From positions 1 through 50,256 of IMG/VR virus record IMGVR_UViG_3300007038_000011: DNA of 50,256 nucleotides. One strand, 5' to 3'. Source of the stretch: a virus. The notes beneath the pieces are model-generated. The model was not told where the DNA came from. It was given only the letters and a program-made list of their open reading frames with translations, and made no database searches. Of this stretch, positions 27,823-36,396 are shown one piece after another; the first letter of the stretch is position 1, and every line of letters starts with the position of its first letter. Position numbers and translations under genes: made by a program.

Positions 27823-28560
27823 TTACAGCCGGCTCCCTTCTCGTGCGCTCTTGGCGTCTTTCGCGGCCTTGCGGCCCTTTTCGTAATCGGTCTCGGGCTC
27901 GTCGCCGCCGGCGGCCTCTTTGTCGCCGGGCTTGCCGTCCCCAGAGCCCGGCGAACTCGTCGAGCCGGGGGCGGGGTCGTGGTCGCGGAAGAGCTCCGGC
28001 ATATCGTCGCGCAAGTCCTCGACGGCGCCCTTTGCGCCCGACACCTCGCCGGTATCGGTGTCATAAGAGATAGCGTCGCGATCGACCAACTTCAAGCTCC
28101 GCCCGGGCGATTTGAGCCCGGCCTCGGCCGCTTCACGCTCGAGCGCGGCGTCGATCGTGGCCTTTCGGGCCTCACGTCGGGCCTCTTCGGCCTCCCGCTT
28201 GGCCGATTCGGCGGCCCGTTCGGCCTTTTCCTTTTCGGTGAGGTTGGACTCCTTGGCCTCCTGGCGCTCTTCGCGCAGCTTCTCGAGTTCGGTTTCGGCC
28301 TCTTCGCGCTTTTTGCGCTCGGCCTCGAAACTGTCCTCGAGCGCGTCGACCTTCCGGGCCAAGTCGGCCGGGTCGGGGCCGCCGTCGGAGTCGTCCGGGG
28401 ATCCGTCGGCCCCGTCGGTATTGTCGTCCGGGTCGCCGTCGGCGCCGCCCTCGTCGGGGTCGTCGTCGGGGTCGTCCGGGTCGTCGTTGAAGGCGAAGGC
28501 GGCCGGCGGGGCGCCGCCCGGCCCGTATCGCAGAAGGCGAATCAATTCGTCGCGGTCCAC
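27823..28560 (-). CDS. scaffold-like capsid assembly protein (245 aa)
   Basis: GTG start with SD GGAGA. Residues 25-65 are an acidic Asp/Gly/Pro stretch. From about 65 to 135 is a long Glu/Lys/Arg-rich coiled coil (VDALEDSFEAERKKREEAETELE), and the end is Gly/Ser/Asp-rich with a basic terminal helix. Acidic plus coiled-coil plus basic C-terminal end is the layout of scaffolds acting upstream of the capsid gene. No protease domain is fused. It guides procapsid assembly and leaves before packaging is complete. Confidence 0.65.
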   Translation of the reverse strand: MDRDELIRLLRYGPGGAPPAAFAFNDDPDDPDDDPDEGGADGDPDDNTDGADGSPDDSDGGPDPADLARKVDALEDSFEAERKKREEAETELEKLREERQEAKESNLTEKEKAERAAESAKREAEEARREARKATIDAALEREAAEAGLKSPGRSLKLVDRDAISYDTDTGEVSGAKGAVEDLRDDMPELFRDHDPAPGSTSSPGSGDGKPGDKEAAGGDEPETDYEKGRKAAKDAKSAREGSRL

Positions 28561-28997: not shown

Positions 28998-29360
28998 TCA
29001 ACGGCCCGGCTGTATGTCGTCGGCCTCGAGTTCGCCGACTTCGAGGTCGATCTCGCCGGAAAGGTAACGGCGGTATGTCCGGGCGACGTCGGCCAGCCGG
29101 CGCGACCGTATGGCCCCCGGGACCTCGACGACCTCGCGGTCGTATTCGTCCGGGAGGGTCACGTCGACGGTCCACGGGTCGGCCGGCAAGAGGAACACGG
29201 TCACGACGTCGTCGGCCAAGATCGGCGCCTTGACGTCGTTGACGAACACCGTCCGGCCGTCGAGGTCGAACACGACGTAAAGGCGCCCGCGGTCGGCCTC
29301 GACGCGGATACGCTCGAGGGTGTGCGTTTCGCCGTTCGGGTCGGTCACTTCAATATCCAC
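28998..29360 (-). CDS. hypothetical protein in the head gene cluster (120 aa)
   Basis: No family recognised. GTG start after the leader ACCAGGAGCCCCC. The first 80 residues alternate hydrophobic and charged residues in strand-like blocks; the C terminus has a helix (RRLADVARTYRRYLSG) and an acidic tail. It lies just downstream of the Mu-F/ADP-ribosyltransferase gene. That position would suit an immunity or regulatory partner of a toxin-like domain, but no sequence feature proves this. Confidence 0.5.
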   Translation of the reverse strand: MDIEVTDPNGETHTLERIRVEADRGRLYVVFDLDGRTVFVNDVKAPILADDVVTVFLLPADPWTVDVTLPDEYDREVVEVPGAIRSRRLADVARTYRRYLSGEIDLEVGELEADDIQPGR

Positions 29361-29372
29361 GGGGGCTCCTGG

Positions 29373-31879
29373 TCATTTCTGGTCTTGCCATTCGAACACG
29401 GGGTCGTCGCTGGCCTCGTCATAGTCGCGGTTCTGGTGCCGGTTTCCGACATATTCGCCGTCGACGCCGTACAGATCGGCGACGATCTCGTTTTCGTTGT
29501 CCCCAAGAAGCGGGCTCCGGCCGTCCCGGTTCCCGCTCCCGTAAAAGGTCGTCGCCCGGTGAAGCGGGACCTCGTCGAAGCGCATCAATTGTTTGCCCTT
29601 CACGTAAACGGCGTTCATGGCCGAATTTGATTCCATCGGCCCGCGGGGCCATACCTGGCCGGACTCGCCCGGCTCGAGGTCGTAGGCGTCGACGACGTCC
29701 GACTTTCGAACCGACCGATACAGCCGGAGGTGGTCGCCGTCGGGCGACTTGAAGGGGAGATCCATGTTCGACAGTAGCTCGTGAGTGTAAGCGTGTTGCC
29801 GGATGAACGTCTCACGGGCGACCTCGTCGTATTCGTCGGCCGTGTAGCCGGTCTCCCTGATACCGCGGCGCCGAAAGTCGTCGGCGTTTTTCTCGACGGC
29901 GTCTTTCCCGTGCAACCAAAACACCTCGTCGGGGTCGCTCCAGTCGAGATCCCGACTCTGCGCATACATGGTTTTGAAATACGACGATCCCGCCGACCAA
30001 GAGTCGCCCCGCTGGCGTATGTGAGCTCGTCGGTCGCCTGGTCGGGCACACCATCCTCCCGCATTTCCACCTTCGCCTTCACGAAGTCGTCGCGGTATTT
30101 CTCGACATAGACGTCGTCGCGCATCTTGCGGTTGACCTCGGCCAGATCCTCCAGCTCCTCGAGCCGGGCCCGGGCCGTGGGGGCATCTTGGTCGACCGCC
30201 TCCAGGAATGCCGCGCGGCGCTCGTCGTCGAGGTCGTCGAACGGGTCAAGGAGGTCGTCGATCGACGTGCCCCGGTATGCCTCCGACGCCCGGTCGTCGT
30301 ACCACGGCCGCATGCTGAAGAGCTCTGTCACATGATCATTCCAGTCGGCCCCCTTGGCGTCTCCTTGGGCCCGGAAGGCCATCGCCCCGCCGTTGTCAAT
30401 TCGCCAGATCGTCCCGTCGGGGGCGATCATCATGTTGTCGAGGTTGAGGCCGGCGGCATCCCAATTCGCCATCAGCGCATCAACGCCGGCGTGTTCTTGG
30501 AGAGCATCGCGGGCGGCGTCGAGCTCGTCGGCCGTCGCCCCGTTGAGGTATTCGCCGAGCTCCTGGCCTTCGATCTTTTCGGCCAGCTTGACCGGGTTGC
30601 CGTCGGCGTCGGTGTACTCACGAAACCGGGGAACCGGGACGTTGAGCTCCTGGTAAGCGGCGTCGGCGCGCATTTCGGATTTGATATGCTGGGGATCGGC
30701 CCCGGATTTCATAACGAACTCCTGGCCGGTGTCCGGGTCGCGCATCAACTTCGCCCCCGTCGAGCCCCCCAAGTCCCCGACCTCTTCGAGGGCGTCGAGC
30801 TCGTCGGGGAACATCAACCCCTCTTGGGCCCCGTCTGTTGAGACGGGCGGCTCGGCGTTGGTGCCGGCTTCGGGCGTGGGGGCGGGGGGCGTGGCCTCGT
30901 CGGCCAGCTCGTCGACCGCCTCGACGACGACGGCATCATCGACCGGCGTGTTTTCGTCGATCGCCCCGTCGGCCATGTCGTCGAGGAGGTCGGCTGAGTC
31001 GTCGGGCCCCTCCTGGTCGGCGCGGCGCTCGCGGCGCTTGCGGGCCGCCCGTTTCATCCTGGTGTCGGCCGTCGCGTCGACATTGTCGAGGTACGGGACC
31101 TCCTTTTCCCGGTCGTTCGGCCGGCCCGGCGGGTGCAAATAGCGGCGCCCCTCCCCGTCGACAAAGTCCTCGTCGACGTCCCTAACCTGGCCCTCGAGCG
31201 GATAGGAGTCGGCGTCGGTGCGGTGGTCGAAGGTGACGATCGCGGTCTTCTGAATGTCCTCGCGCACGCCCTTATGCCGGGTCGCGGCGATCGTCTTGTG
31301 GTGCGCGTTGTTGTAGGCCCAGGACAGTTCCGTCCGGGCGATCCGGTCGGCGGCGTACCGGCGCCGGCCGATCATCTTCTGTATGCGGTCGGTCAACTCC
31401 GTGCGGTCGCCCCTGGTGGCGATGGTGTGGGCGAGCTGGGATTCCATGCGCTTGATCAGATCCATGCCGTAGCGGGTCACCGATGTTTCGTGCCGGCGGA
31501 GCAAGGAGTCGGCCGATATGGCCGATATGGCCGCCAGGTTGGGCAAGCGCATTTCGGCCCCGTAGTGGTCAAGCCAAGCGTTGAGCTCGGCGGCGACGTC
31601 GTAGCCGGCTTGACGTGTCAGAAGCGCCGACACGTTCGCCATTTCGCCCGACGCGGCGTCGACATAGCTTTGTGCGGTCTGGGCGAATAGGGCTTGGATC
31701 CGGGCTTGCTGGGCGCGGAAAGAGTCTTTCGGGAGCTGTTGCAGCTCGTTTCTGAGGGTGTCGAAGGCCCGATCTAGCACGCGGCGGACACGCTTGCGGC
31801 CCTCTTCGGTCATCTTGGCGAGCCGGCGGTCGTTGCGCCGGCCGATCTCGACGATCTGTTCGGGGAGCTCTTCGGGCAC
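29373..31879 (-). CDS. Mu-F head protein with kinase-like and ADP-ribosyltransferase domains, frame broken at a G4 run
   Basis: Residues 1-265 match the Mu gpF/SPP1 gp7 plan: helical N terminus, ADRIARTELSWAYNNA (about 177-192), then FDHRTDADSYPLEGQVR and LHPPGRPNDRE. After an acidic linker, residues 370-550 look kinase-like: GGSTG loop, VMK near 391, NWDAAGLNLDN near 472-482, and WRIDNGG near 492. At about residue 624 (C run 30007-30010) the frame shifts; adding one G continues as SWSAGSSYFKT. The rest has LRLYRSV, ESNSAM and DNENEIVADL, the R, S and E-x-E landmarks of ADP-ribosyltransferases. The joined protein is about 835 aa and probably enters the cell with DNA. Confidence 0.65.
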
Positions 31880-31905: not shown

Positions 31906-33471
31906 TTATTGATTCTCGGGCGGATCGGTGTTGGTGGCCGGGTCGTTGTTGGGCGCGGGCGGGGCGTTTCGGCTCGGCGGTTGAATCCCGACGGTGCCCC
32001 CGGCGGCCGCCTCGAGGTCTGCCTCCTCGAGGAAAGCGTCAATGTCGTCGATCCCGTAGTACTTCGCGACCCGCTCCAGCGCCTTCCGTTTGTCGAGGAT
32101 CCCGGACTCGTGAAGCTGGACGGCGGCTTGTACCTCCTTCAGGAGGTCGTCGACGGTCGGCTCGACGGGGGCCGGCCAGGAGACGGCCACTTTTCGCCGG
32201 TCGTAGCCGGCGGCCGCCAGGAGCTTCGCCATGAATCGGGCGAGCCCCTTCCCGTAGCTGGTGCGAAGCTCGTCGACTTGGGCGAGGGTCGGCCGGAGCA
32301 TGCGCTCGAGGGCGACGCCGGATTGTACTTGGGCCGCCTCCTGCGGGTCGTGTTTCGCGACCCTTGCCATGTCGAAAAACACCTTTCGCACGAGGTCGAT
32401 GTATTCCATCGCCGTCGTCTGGCCGCCGCCTTGAAGCTCCAGGAGCTCGGCGGTCGGGACCGAACCGTCCAGCGGGGAGGGCGGGAGGGTCAAGGTGTTG
32501 TTGGCCCCACGCTTGATCGTGTCGCCTTCGTCCCCGGCGTCGATCCCGCTAAACACCGTCGTCGGCTCTTGGTTGTAGGAGATCCCCCGGTCAAGCTGGG
32601 AGAGGGTGTAGTTGACGGAGTCCTCGAGGGAAAATTCGGCCTCGCTGAGGAGGGGCGTGCCGTCGACGTCGCCGGTGATCTGGGGGCCGTTGGTGATCCA
32701 TTCGGCGGGCACAAAGCCGAGGCCGTGCTCGACGGTGTTGTCGTTTTCGGTCCAGTCCAGATCGTCGGGGTCGGTGACCGTCTCGACGTCGATCGGGTCG
32801 TATTCGTGTGTCGTGGTCGGCGTGAAGCGGCGCCGGTGTAGCCATACCGTCCGGTCGCCGGTGATCGGGTCGGCTTCGAGGTCGAACCAATACTCGTCGA
32901 GCTCGACAAGCTCGTCGTCGGCAATGTCGTAGGCGGCCGCGGTGGCAAGGTCGTCCCGGCCGAAGGTCGGCTTGCACATTGACGTCGACGAGACCTCCGT
33001 CGACCAGCGCGCGCCCCCGCCGTCGGTCTCCCGCTTGTGGAAGATCAGAACGACCGACCCGTGAAGGAGGCCCAAACGGCCGACCTCTGAGAGCTTCGAT
33101 CGCACGCCCGCCCCGTCCTCGTCGTCGGCAAAGTGGCGCTCGAGGACCGCCCGCTCTTCGTCGAGGGCCGCTTCGGTCTCGTCGGGGCCGTCCCCTTCGT
33201 CGTCGAGCTCCAGGTCGACTGAGGGCTTTCGATTTCGGCCGAAGAGGTAGGAGTTGACCTCGTCGACGGCCCGCTTTGTCAGTCGGACGCGCACCCGGGG
33301 CTTCTTGTCTCTGAGGGCCACACCGTCGGCATTCCAGTCCTCGAGGTGGTCATATTGCTTGCCCCAATAGTAGGCCGACGCGGTGCGTTGCTCCCGCTCG
33401 CGGTCGGTCAAGCCGTAGAATTTCGCAAGCTCGAGGGCCTCGTCGAGTTCTCTAACACCAGGGGAGATCAC
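31906..33471 (-). CDS. portal protein, SPP1 gp6-like (521 aa)
   Basis: The protein lies between terminase and the Mu-F gene, as in SPP1/Mu-like phages. It has 'YYWGKQYDHL' and 'RLTKRAVDEVNSYLFGR' near the N terminus, an acidic loop, 'DDELVELDEYWFDLEADPITG', 'HGLGFVPAEWITNGP', 'FSLEDSVNYTLSQLDRGISYNQEPTTVFSG', and a C-terminal helical stretch 'SGVALERMLRPTLAQVDELRTSYGKG'. This matches the portal wing, clip, stem and crown layout. It forms the dodecameric DNA gate. Start GTG overlaps the terminase stop. Confidence 0.75.
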   Translation of the reverse strand: MISPGVRELDEALELAKFYGLTDREREQRTASAYYWGKQYDHLEDWNADGVALRDKKPRVRVRLTKRAVDEVNSYLFGRNRKPSVDLELDDEGDGPDETEAALDEERAVLERHFADDEDGAGVRSKLSEVGRLGLLHGSVVLIFHKRETDGGGARWSTEVSSTSMCKPTFGRDDLATAAAYDIADDELVELDEYWFDLEADPITGDRTVWLHRRRFTPTTTHEYDPIDVETVTDPDDLDWTENDNTVEHGLGFVPAEWITNGPQITGDVDGTPLLSEAEFSLEDSVNYTLSQLDRGISYNQEPTTVFSGIDAGDEGDTIKRGANNTLTLPPSPLDGSVPTAELLELQGGGQTTAMEYIDLVRKVFFDMARVAKHDPQEAAQVQSGVALERMLRPTLAQVDELRTSYGKGLARFMAKLLAAAGYDRRKVAVSWPAPVEPTVDDLLKEVQAAVQLHESGILDKRKALERVAKYYGIDDIDAFLEEADLEAAAGGTVGIQPPSRNAPPAPNNDPATNTDPPENQ

Positions 33472-34979
33472 GCCGCGCTCCTATTGTCGGCAAAAATAGA
33501 CCAGTCGAGTCGGGCCACGCCGCCGCCGTCGTCGTGCTCGGTGAGCACGGCGTAGCGTAGGGCGTCGACCGCGTGGTCATCCTCTTTGACCGGCTTCTCT
33601 GTGTTGTCGTCGCGGTAGCGGTAAGAGGACAACTCACGGCGGAGGTTAGCGCACGACCGATGCAGGTACAACGCGGGGCGGGAAGGGCCGCCCTCTGGGG
33701 GCGCGACCGGCTCGAGGAGGGCGGCCAGAGCTTCGATCCCGGGGGCCACGGCGTTGTTTGCCGGCCGGACGTCGAGGCGCTCCCCGTCGGTGTCGGTGTG
33801 CGATCGGCACGTCTGAATGTGGTCGGGTTGCGAAGGGTCTGCCCACCACCGGGACACACCGCGGATCCCGGCCGCACGGGACAAGCGGCGTACCCAAGAG
33901 TCGGCGTGCCGGTTGCCCCCGGGCGGGGAGACGGTAAGCCGCTCCTGGTAGTCCTCACGATAGGCGTACAACGTCCCGTCGTCGGTCTTGGCGATCTCAA
34001 TCTGGGCGCCCGGGTTGGCGTGGCCCCAGTCGAGCCCGCCGAACTTGGCGACCACGCGCGACCACGGGATTTGTGTCACGACGTGGGTGTCGTCGTCGAG
34101 GAATGCTTCGAACACCTTGCCGCGGAAGGCCTCGAAAGACGCGGCGTAGTTGCGCAGATAGATCGGCTCGGGGAGGTCGCGCTTGGCCCGCTGGGCCTCT
34201 TCGACCAGCGCGGGCACGGCCGTGTTGTCGATGGTTTTGAAGTGCAGCCCGTACCATCCACGCGACCGCTCGCCCCGCCCCAATTGCGTTTTCTGCCATT
34301 CGTCGAAAACCCAATTTTTGCCCATCGGGGTTGTCGTGAAGAGCGCCCACCCTTGTTTGTCCGACAAGGTCGACGCGACGTTATCGTGCCACGTCTGGGC
34401 CTTCATGCGGGCGGCCTCCTCAACCCAAACCCCGTCGAGGCCGGCGGCGACCAGTCGCTCGGGCCGGTCGGCGCTCTTGAACTCAATCCGTATCCCGCCG
34501 ACGAGCCAGAGCCGGGACTCCGACTCGTGCCATTTGAGTATCAGATCGGACTCTTCGGGTTGCCCCAGAACCTCGAAAATCTCCTGTTGAGGGTATCCCG
34601 TGAGGTCGTGAGTCGGGGCAACAACCCAATAGGTAAGCGCGGCCTTGGTCTTTTTGGAGAGGTTGGCCGGAGCGGTCCACGTCCCGCCGGCGTCGCGAAA
34701 CGCCTGGTAGTCGTCGGCGATGTTCGGGAGGAAGTGTGAACGGGCGCCGCCGTAGGTCTTCCCGGCCCGACGGCCGGCCACGAGCATAACCCGGGGATGG
34801 TGGCGGTTGTCGGCGAGCTCGCGTTGCTTCTCGTGCGGTTGGTAGTCGGCCAGGTATTCGGCCGCGAAGGTGTCCGGGTCGGGGAACCGGTCGGCCTTGT
34901 CGGTCCTCGAGCTCCCGCGGGCGATCGGGGTCGTCCGGGCCAGGCGGCGCCGGATACGTTTGGCGGTCTCATAGGACAC
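33468..34979 (-). CDS. terL: terminase large subunit (503 aa)
   Basis: The ATPase half has Walker A GRRAGKT (69-75) and Walker B with catalytic Glu in LDGVWVEEA (181-189), then FTTTPMG as the coupling motif. The nuclease half has the acidic residues expected: GGLDWGH, RWWADPS and KEDDHAVDALRYAVL. Together these form the packaging motor and headful or end-cutting nuclease. Length is typical. Order TerS, TerL, portal, Mu-F is classic. GTG start without a strong SD, probably coupled to TerS nine bases upstream. Confidence 0.85.
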   Translation of the reverse strand: MSYETAKRIRRRLARTTPIARGSSRTDKADRFPDPDTFAAEYLADYQPHEKQRELADNRHHPRVMLVAGRRAGKTYGGARSHFLPNIADDYQAFRDAGGTWTAPANLSKKTKAALTYWVVAPTHDLTGYPQQEIFEVLGQPEESDLILKWHESESRLWLVGGIRIEFKSADRPERLVAAGLDGVWVEEAARMKAQTWHDNVASTLSDKQGWALFTTTPMGKNWVFDEWQKTQLGRGERSRGWYGLHFKTIDNTAVPALVEEAQRAKRDLPEPIYLRNYAASFEAFRGKVFEAFLDDDTHVVTQIPWSRVVAKFGGLDWGHANPGAQIEIAKTDDGTLYAYREDYQERLTVSPPGGNRHADSWVRRLSRAAGIRGVSRWWADPSQPDHIQTCRSHTDTDGERLDVRPANNAVAPGIEALAALLEPVAPPEGGPSRPALYLHRSCANLRRELSSYRYRDDNTEKPVKEDDHAVDALRYAVLTEHDDGGGVARLDWSIFADNRSAA

Positions 34980-35552: not shown

Positions 35553-35855
35553 TCACCTCCCGGAGTCGGCTTCGAGGCGGGTGATCTGTACGGCCTCGTC
35601 GGCGTCGAACACGATCCGGCCGCAGTCGTGGTTGTACGTCTGGCCGGACAATTTGAGGCGGACGAGGTGCCGGTCGCCGTCGTCGCCTCGAATCGCGTCG
35701 AAGTGTCGCCACTTGTCACGCGACAGAGTGCGGCGGTCTTTCCCGGCGCGGTGGTGCCATCGGACGTCGGCGAGGTTGTGCCGGACGTTGAGCACCACGA
35801 TCTCTGTGTCCCCTATCTCTATTCGGCTGCTAGCTGTGATTCCGAGCACGAGCAC
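35553..35855 (-). CDS. CsrA-like RNA-binding protein with C-terminal extension (100 aa)
   Basis: The GTG start (35855) has SD GAGGAGA. The first 48 residues follow CsrA/RsmA: LVLGITASSRIEIGD, then EIVVLNV, then ADVRW, and GKDRRTLSRDKW, in line with the family pattern L-x-L-x5-I-x-IGD, I-x-V-x-V, VR-(L/I) and K-D-x3-HRE-E. The Arg of SRDKW aligns with the RNA-contacting Arg44 of CsrA. A 50-residue extension of unknown fold follows. CsrA binds GGA motifs in mRNA leaders and controls translation. It overlaps the RecU-like gene by 26 bases. Confidence 0.5.
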   Translation of the reverse strand: MLVLGITASSRIEIGDTEIVVLNVRHNLADVRWHHRAGKDRRTLSRDKWRHFDAIRGDDGDRHLVRLKLSGQTYNHDCGRIVFDADEAVQITRLEADSGR

Positions 35856-36396
35856 GGGCGATCTCCTCGAGGTCGTAGACTTGGGCGATACGGTCGAGCC
35901 ACGTCTCGCGGGTTTGGAGACGGTAGCGGTCAGAGTCGGCCCAAGGGATAGAGCGCCGGCTGGTGATTCCGGCGACGACGCCGTCGGAGGAGACGGGATA
36001 TGTGAAGGTTTGCCACTGCGGGAAGGGCTTGTCGGTATCCCAATAGCGGCGGACGAGCACGAAGGAGAGGGCCCCGTAGAGGGCATGGTCCGCCAGGATT
36101 TCCAGTTGTGTCGGTGCCTCGTCGTTTTTGCGGGCTTCAAGTCGGTTGAGCGGGAAGTAACGGTCGTGGGAGCAAACCTTGGCCTCAAAAGCCACGCTTC
36201 GGCCGTTCGCCAGGGTGCCCACAAAGTCGACCTCCCGACGTGTGTCTCGGTGGCCGATGATCTTGGCGCCTTCACGGCGTAGGACGTTGATCGGGTCGGG
36301 AACCGACACGACGCGGGCACGGCCCGCCTCGTGCAGTCGGGTGTTTATCTTCTCGACTTCGCGTTCGAAGTCTTTTCCAGAGGTCGAATTGCCCAC
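35830..36396 (-). CDS. RecU-like Holliday junction resolvase (188 aa)
   Basis: It has the RecU plan: GKDFEREVEKIN at the N terminus, 'VVSVPDPIN', 'GHRDTRREVDFVGTLANGRSVAFEAKVC' with Asp57 and the E-A-K (Glu71, Lys73) of the PD-(D/E)XK centre, then 'FPLNRLEARKNDEAPTQLEILADHALYGALSFVLVRR'. RecU enzymes cut Holliday junctions; in phages they debranch DNA before packaging, which fits its place just upstream of terminase. GTG start with leader ACACCGGG. Confidence 0.7.
   Translation of the reverse strand: MGNSTSGKDFEREVEKINTRLHEAGRARVVSVPDPINVLRREGAKIIGHRDTRREVDFVGTLANGRSVAFEAKVCSHDRYFPLNRLEARKNDEAPTQLEILADHALYGALSFVLVRRYWDTDKPFPQWQTFTYPVSSDGVVAGITSRRSIPWADSDRYRLQTRETWLDRIAQVYDLEEIARARARNHS

Follow-up and report, generated by a model that had tools for sequence, protein, structure and literature searches.

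The minus-strand gene at 31879-29373 of an IMG/VR virus contig (IMGVR_UViG_3300007038_000011; 50,256 bases, 65% guanine-cytosine (GC), analysed over its whole length and called the window here) raises the question of what a phage head protein does with enzyme-like domains attached to its end. An original prediction read it as a MuF head protein fused to a kinase-like domain and an ADP-ribosyltransferase (ART); like its author, we infer that one virion polypeptide may deliver two modifying activities, with the ART-like part out of frame in this contig. The gene, from an uncultured tailed phage, probably encodes a virion-borne polymorphic effector of the MuF type whose payload combines kinase and ART, with a putative immunity protein of its own encoded alongside. 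This reading is supported by the position of the gene between portal and scaffold genes, by MuF profile matches, by the kinase fold and its residues, by the recurrence of the kinase-ART coupling and by the specific linkage of a small gene. The arrangement recurs in dozens of other viral contigs and prophages, which suggests a genuine injected-effector system of wide distribution.

The MuF, kinase-fold and ART-like domains

All motifs on which the original prediction was built were observed. ADRIARTELSWAYNNA, LHPPGRP, GGSTG, VMK, NWDAAGLNLDN and WRIDNGG lie in the frame beginning with the GTG at 31879, and LRLYRSV, ESNSAM and DNENE lie in that of the open reading frame (ORF) 29969-29373. The change of frame, predicted near 30007-30010, was found where the first frame ends, at about 30000-30030 and just upstream of ...GDSWSAGSSYF; the other frame continues to 29373. 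We left the break unrepaired and analysed the two frame pieces separately.

Profile evidence supported the predicted MuF domain, and a fold model the predicted kinase-like domain. The window MuF matched Pfam PF04233 at E 3e-4 (21.9 bits, under the curated cut-off of 29.6) and TIGR01641 at E 2.5e-3 (18.2 bits, under the cut-off of 39.65), and several PHROG head-morphogenesis families matched it, with a lowest E of 2.2e-6 (phrog_3517). A MuF profile iterated on related loci scored it at 6.8e-23, a value to be read with the seeding of that profile from the window sequence itself. Curated cut-offs were passed by relatives of the same architecture; L053 and L067 exceeded that of the Pfam MuF family.

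The model of the kinase-fold domain (AlphaFold; predicted local distance difference test, pLDDT, 93.4) matched 439 PDB chains at E<=1e-3 in Foldseek. The 50 listed were all protein-kinase folds, and Kae1-Bud32 was the top match among them. The domain carries a GGSTG loop, a lysine (30707-30709), a glutamate (30674-30676), the aspartate of NWD (30458-30460), an asparagine (30434-30436) and the aspartate of DNGG (30395-30397), and K41, E52, D124, N132 and D145 were invariant across 66 aligned kinase-fold sequences. Weak Pfam matches to HipA_2, HipA_C and APH were seen in relatives, and a PDB sequence-profile search with the family returned nothing meaningful. We consider the kinase fold solid; phosphotransfer is predicted from the model.

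The C-terminal domain has the R-S-E order of ARTs in the form R, S-x-S, ExE. These are the main invariant residues of its family (R93, S122, P143, E167, N168 and E169 in 34 aligned sequences), the second serine of ESTS varying in some members. Their spacing is 29 and 45-47 residues, compared with 27 and 39-41 in the classical ARTs that occupy the same slot in other kinase proteins. In the model of the domain (pLDDT 83.7) the arginine lies on a strand that is followed by a helix, the serine on a later strand and ExE just ahead of the last strands, which is the order known for ARTs. Foldseek listed 50 PDB matches, 13 of them from the ART superfamily (C3 exoenzymes, tankyrases, XopAI) and none significant. 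A profile-profile comparison with classical ARTs aligned 115 columns with R, S and ExE in register, and no shuffle out of 200 block shuffles reached a length of 80 columns or more; in this comparison kinship is favoured by alignment length and residue register only, its score being non-significant. No Pfam family fitted the domain (PF03496 and PF01129 were not matched), and the family found nothing meaningful in a PDB sequence-profile search. Single-sequence searches of phage records and viral contigs with the C-terminal piece gave no match, nor did a peptide-pattern search with its own motifs or a search of phages with the domain of one relative.

The predicted ART therefore stands in part. 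Residue order, a C-terminal slot in common with PF03496 ARTs and ART-enriched fold matches make ART identity likely but unproven, and we use the name ART-like for now because neither the fold matches nor the profile score are significant. Structure prediction, which had been suggested as a check, recovered the kinase fold from the separately modelled pieces and gave no significant ART fold match.

Relatives, exchange of payloads and the linked small gene

The best relative of the kinase-fold part scored E 8.8e-66, and IMG/VR contained 529 relatives of the domain. A tblastn search of phages returned 19 records, several annotated as ADP-ribosyltransferase, and relatives were present in 43 bacterial genome contigs, many from Verrucomicrobia and related groups and one from Nostoc linckia. 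In Legionella longbeachae (L117) and a member of the Chlamydiales (L123) the domain was observed in proteins of 2033 and 1125 residues, respectively, with no ART match. Of the kinase-containing loci, 36 held a relative of the C-terminal piece (E<1e-3; 6.8e-18 for the best), in every case downstream of the kinase-like domain.

We surveyed the architecture of 79 deduplicated kinase proteins. The new C-terminal domain was observed in 39-40 of these, with MuF detected in 26 and not in 13-14, so that the search for MuF proteins with the same domain order, also suggested earlier, yielded 26 proteins. A classical ART (PF03496) occupied the same slot in 22 proteins (2 of the 22 with MuF), and no protein among the 79 held both. 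A third C-terminal domain was found in eight and nothing was detected in about ten. Over the kinase tree at least 12 changes of C-terminal type and about 18 of N-terminal carrier are required, which makes the kinase domain the constant centre; no more than 3 changes are needed for the rows with the new C-terminal domain. The pattern by which MuF polymorphic toxins are recognised, a conserved carrier bearing C-terminal payloads that vary, was thus observed. A search with the C-terminal domain alone, using a subset profile, found 32 loci, of which L171 had no detectable copy; in all 31 loci that still hold the domain, the kinase domain is part of the same gene or of an adjoining broken frame.

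The third domain, of about 230 residues, was shared by L052, L053, L055, L067, L071, L079, L086 and L092 and carried the motifs TTTxxRxRxGV, SSxSDxxTGGAxY, RxDAxSYxxD and NETxFKxG; six members (L052, L053, L055, L067, L071, L086) were scanned against Pfam with no match. A hidden ART in proteins that seemed to consist of the kinase alone was considered and rejected, as these eight share a domain that lacks the R-S-E order.

The kinase-ART coupling also occurs on other head proteins. A portal, a kinase-fold domain and a classical ADP-ribosyltransferase form one polypeptide in L005, L006, L077, L081 and L084. Cultured phages carry kinase-ART in large proteins, one of them recorded as particle-associated, and in two Gordonia phages genes for a portal, a kinase protein and a separate ART follow closely on one another. 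Conserved genes follow the kinase-ART gene in the cultured phages L010, L011, L012, L015, L016 and L018. Among them are a NUDIX hydrolase gene, annotated as such in L012 and L016, and one for a small MW...YxNFK protein, which is likewise found after many genes of the new type.

A family of small proteins absent from the original prediction was associated with the ART-like domain. To find it, downstream ORFs were clustered and the 6,535 small ORFs of all loci were then searched with a profile iterated on related loci. A hidden Markov model (HMM) trained without the window matched the 120-residue window ORF at E 6.7e-6 (scaled to the 6,535 small ORFs). Members of about 85-140 residues lie directly after C-terminal-domain genes in 36 loci, usually within 20 bases and in 5 of the 36 on the opposite strand; none was found beside classical-ART genes or elsewhere among the small ORFs of all loci. 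The small protein had no Pfam match, and a PDB sequence-profile search with its family gave nothing meaningful. This small ORF family, linked to kinase and ART-like genes, is new here. One locus (L027:3121-10226) holds two complete kinase and ART-like genes and the remnant of a third copy in tandem, as expected of toxin cassettes. The same contig also holds a classical ART gene and resembles a toxin cassette array. The specific linkage and the tandem copies with their remnant give the layout of polymorphic toxin systems, including a payload-specific small adjacent gene, as judged by linkage. The two genes are a toxin-immunity arrangement in their sequence layout, with immunity putative.

The effector reading, known systems and alternatives

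Under the effector reading the MuF domain would place the protein in the head, and the payload would comprise a kinase-fold domain that resembles HipA/Bud32 and retains every catalytic residue, followed by a new R-S-E ADP-ribosyltransferase-like domain. The protein would enter a bacterial cell along with the DNA and modify host proteins, and the small neighbour, judged by its linkage, may bind or antagonise the ART-like domain and so shield the producing or lysogenic cell. Head placement and delivery are modelled on known MuF proteins and T4 Alt (PMC5512222, PMC9503650, PMC5576092). The kinase-fold domain may be an effector in its own right or may regulate the ART. A broader proposal is a class of head effectors in which kinase-fold and ART form one unit, the kinase controlling or aiding the ART, with a dedicated immunity protein and with MuF, portal and other virion proteins carrying the same kinase joined to ARTs of different types; we regard this as rather improbable.

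MuF-ART fusions as such are already known. MuF polymorphic toxins of temperate phages, with ADP-ribosyl transferases among their payloads (PMC5576092), share with our gene an N-terminal MuF, an enzymatic C-terminal extension and a small ORF right after the gene. They differ in that the text describing them has no kinase domain or three-part MuF-kinase-ART protein, in that the ART-like family here lacks a Pfam match, and in their temperate origin, to be compared here with relatives in bacterial genome contigs and the integrase result given below. Bxa, a MuF-ADP-ribosyltransferase of a Bacteroides prophage with the immunity proteins Bsi and BAH (PMC11699363), similarly joins MuF to an ART within the head module and has a small immunity gene (Bsi) beside it, to which our small ORF is a putative counterpart; the word kinase is absent from the main text of that study, and here neither the ART-like domain nor the small protein belongs to a family with a Pfam match. 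A further known MuF-ART fusion is encoded beside terminase and portal, and the available part of its source mentions no protein-kinase-fold domain between MuF and ART. Polyvalent proteins, too, travel in the virion and have several domains, ART and kinase among them, according to the portion of the source available (PMC5512222). The same portion describes an insert between the conserved active-site His and Asp of their kinases, whereas here NWD is followed by the Asn 6-8 residues on, and it contains no explicit MuF-kinase-ART architecture. The kinase-fold protein SidJ, which modifies the ART of SdeA at its catalytic Glu (PMC6858067), likewise pairs a kinase-fold enzyme with an ART, but the two are separate secreted proteins acting in eukaryotic target cells and serve as an analogy only. 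No three-part MuF-kinase-ART system was found described in the literature searched (article texts, as distinct from figures and supplements), in agreement with the earlier statement that the combination was uncharacterised.

Several observations weigh against the effector reading. The gene is broken between the kinase-fold and ART-like domains in this contig. The C-terminal model had no significant fold match (best PDB E 0.95, TM (template modelling) about 0.24), and its weak profile-profile score against classical ARTs was equalled by 8 of 200 block shuffles. A PF00589 integrase was not found in the 50 kb record, which may be incomplete, so that a lysogenic need for immunity is hypothetical for this phage.

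The break bears most directly on the possibility that the ART-like part is a decayed remnant in this phage, leaving a MuF-kinase product. The break stands in the record, and in L033 and L062 the frame is lost no more than about 20 codons from that position and in the same direction; yet every invariant residue is kept in the C-terminal frame, the adjacent partner gene is undamaged, a contig error would appear identical, and we hold decay to be somewhat unlikely. Less likely again is that the C-terminal domain is another enzyme or a binding domain with a coincidental R-S-E order, which would still leave a MuF-kinase effector with an immunity-like partner. That no ART was matched significantly by fold or by profile fits this view, but the view has to account for R, S and ExE as the main invariant residues with near-classical spacing, for their register over an alignment longer than any shuffle gave, for the ART-superfamily share of the listed PDB matches, and for a slot that classical ARTs occupy in other proteins and never in the same one.

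The kinase-fold domain could instead act in cis, modifying the fused ART-like domain and keeping it silent until delivery, by analogy with SidJ on SdeA. The C-terminal domain was never found without the kinase domain (31/31 loci), and at least two ART types occur with the kinase, around which carriers and C-terminal types change. Linkage alone is insufficient here because a single ancestral fusion may explain the loci (40 rows, only 3 changes); an ordinary kinase active site is kept and an immunity-like gene is already present, and we rate cis regulation as quite unlikely. Least probable is a role inside the cell that makes the protein (lysogen fitness, exclusion of competing phages or host takeover ahead of assembly) in place of one that follows injection. 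An immunity gene would be needed under late or lysogenic expression too, and the opposite-strand position of some immunity-like genes fits this role, but the particle-associated relative and the recurrent joining to MuF and portal head proteins argue against it.

With regard to the break itself, nearly all relatives have the gene as a single uninterrupted frame, and no near-identical contigs were found with which to assess it. Three divergent loci (L033/L142, at L142:5911-6022; L062:7094-7205; and the window at 30000-30030) have a frame break at the start of the C-terminal domain, within about 20 codons and all in the same direction. A programmed frameshift was considered unlikely, as the positions are about 20 codons apart, most relatives are unbroken and no shared slippery site was seen by eye at the three breaks. 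The break is either a contig error or a real mutation.

If the effector reading is right, phages apparently carry in their heads a widespread kinase-plus-ART payload (more than 500 kinase relatives in IMG/VR) with ART-like and immunity-like families that Pfam does not hold. Intact relative genes could be used to study the takeover of bacteria by virion-delivered enzymes, and to ask if the kinase fold controls the fused ART.

The head module of the window

The gene order around 31879-29373 is that of a standard head module, running on the minus strand from the terminase large subunit through portal, MuF-kinase gene and 120-residue ORF to the head scaffolding protein (Table 1). The gene thus adjoins the portal within the packaging and head module, as is usual for MuF proteins.

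Table 1. Positions of the gene, its domains and neighbouring genes in the window.
Feature	Position	Strand	Basis
Terminase large subunit	33468..34979	-	phrog_2 8.9e-27; TIGR01547
Portal protein	31906..33471	-	phrog_64 1.4e-12
Whole gene region	31879-29373	-	GTG start at 31879, two frames
MuF (minor head / SPP1 gp7-like) domain	31088..31552	-	PF04233, phrog_3517, TIGR01641 matches
Kinase-fold domain	30047..30811	-	Conserved residues, AlphaFold model, PDB fold matches
Frame break, kinase frame to C-terminal frame	30000..30030	-	Translations
ART-like C-terminal domain	29439..30017	-	Arg 29715-29717, Ser 29628-29630, ENE 29487-29495
Small ORF, 120 residues, immunity-like partner family (putative)	28998..29360	-	HMM E 6.7e-6
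Head scaffolding protein	27823..28560	-	phrog_4708 3.7e-11

A Holliday junction resolvase-like gene (35830-36396; phrog_843, 5.6e-20) was also observed close to the packaging module.
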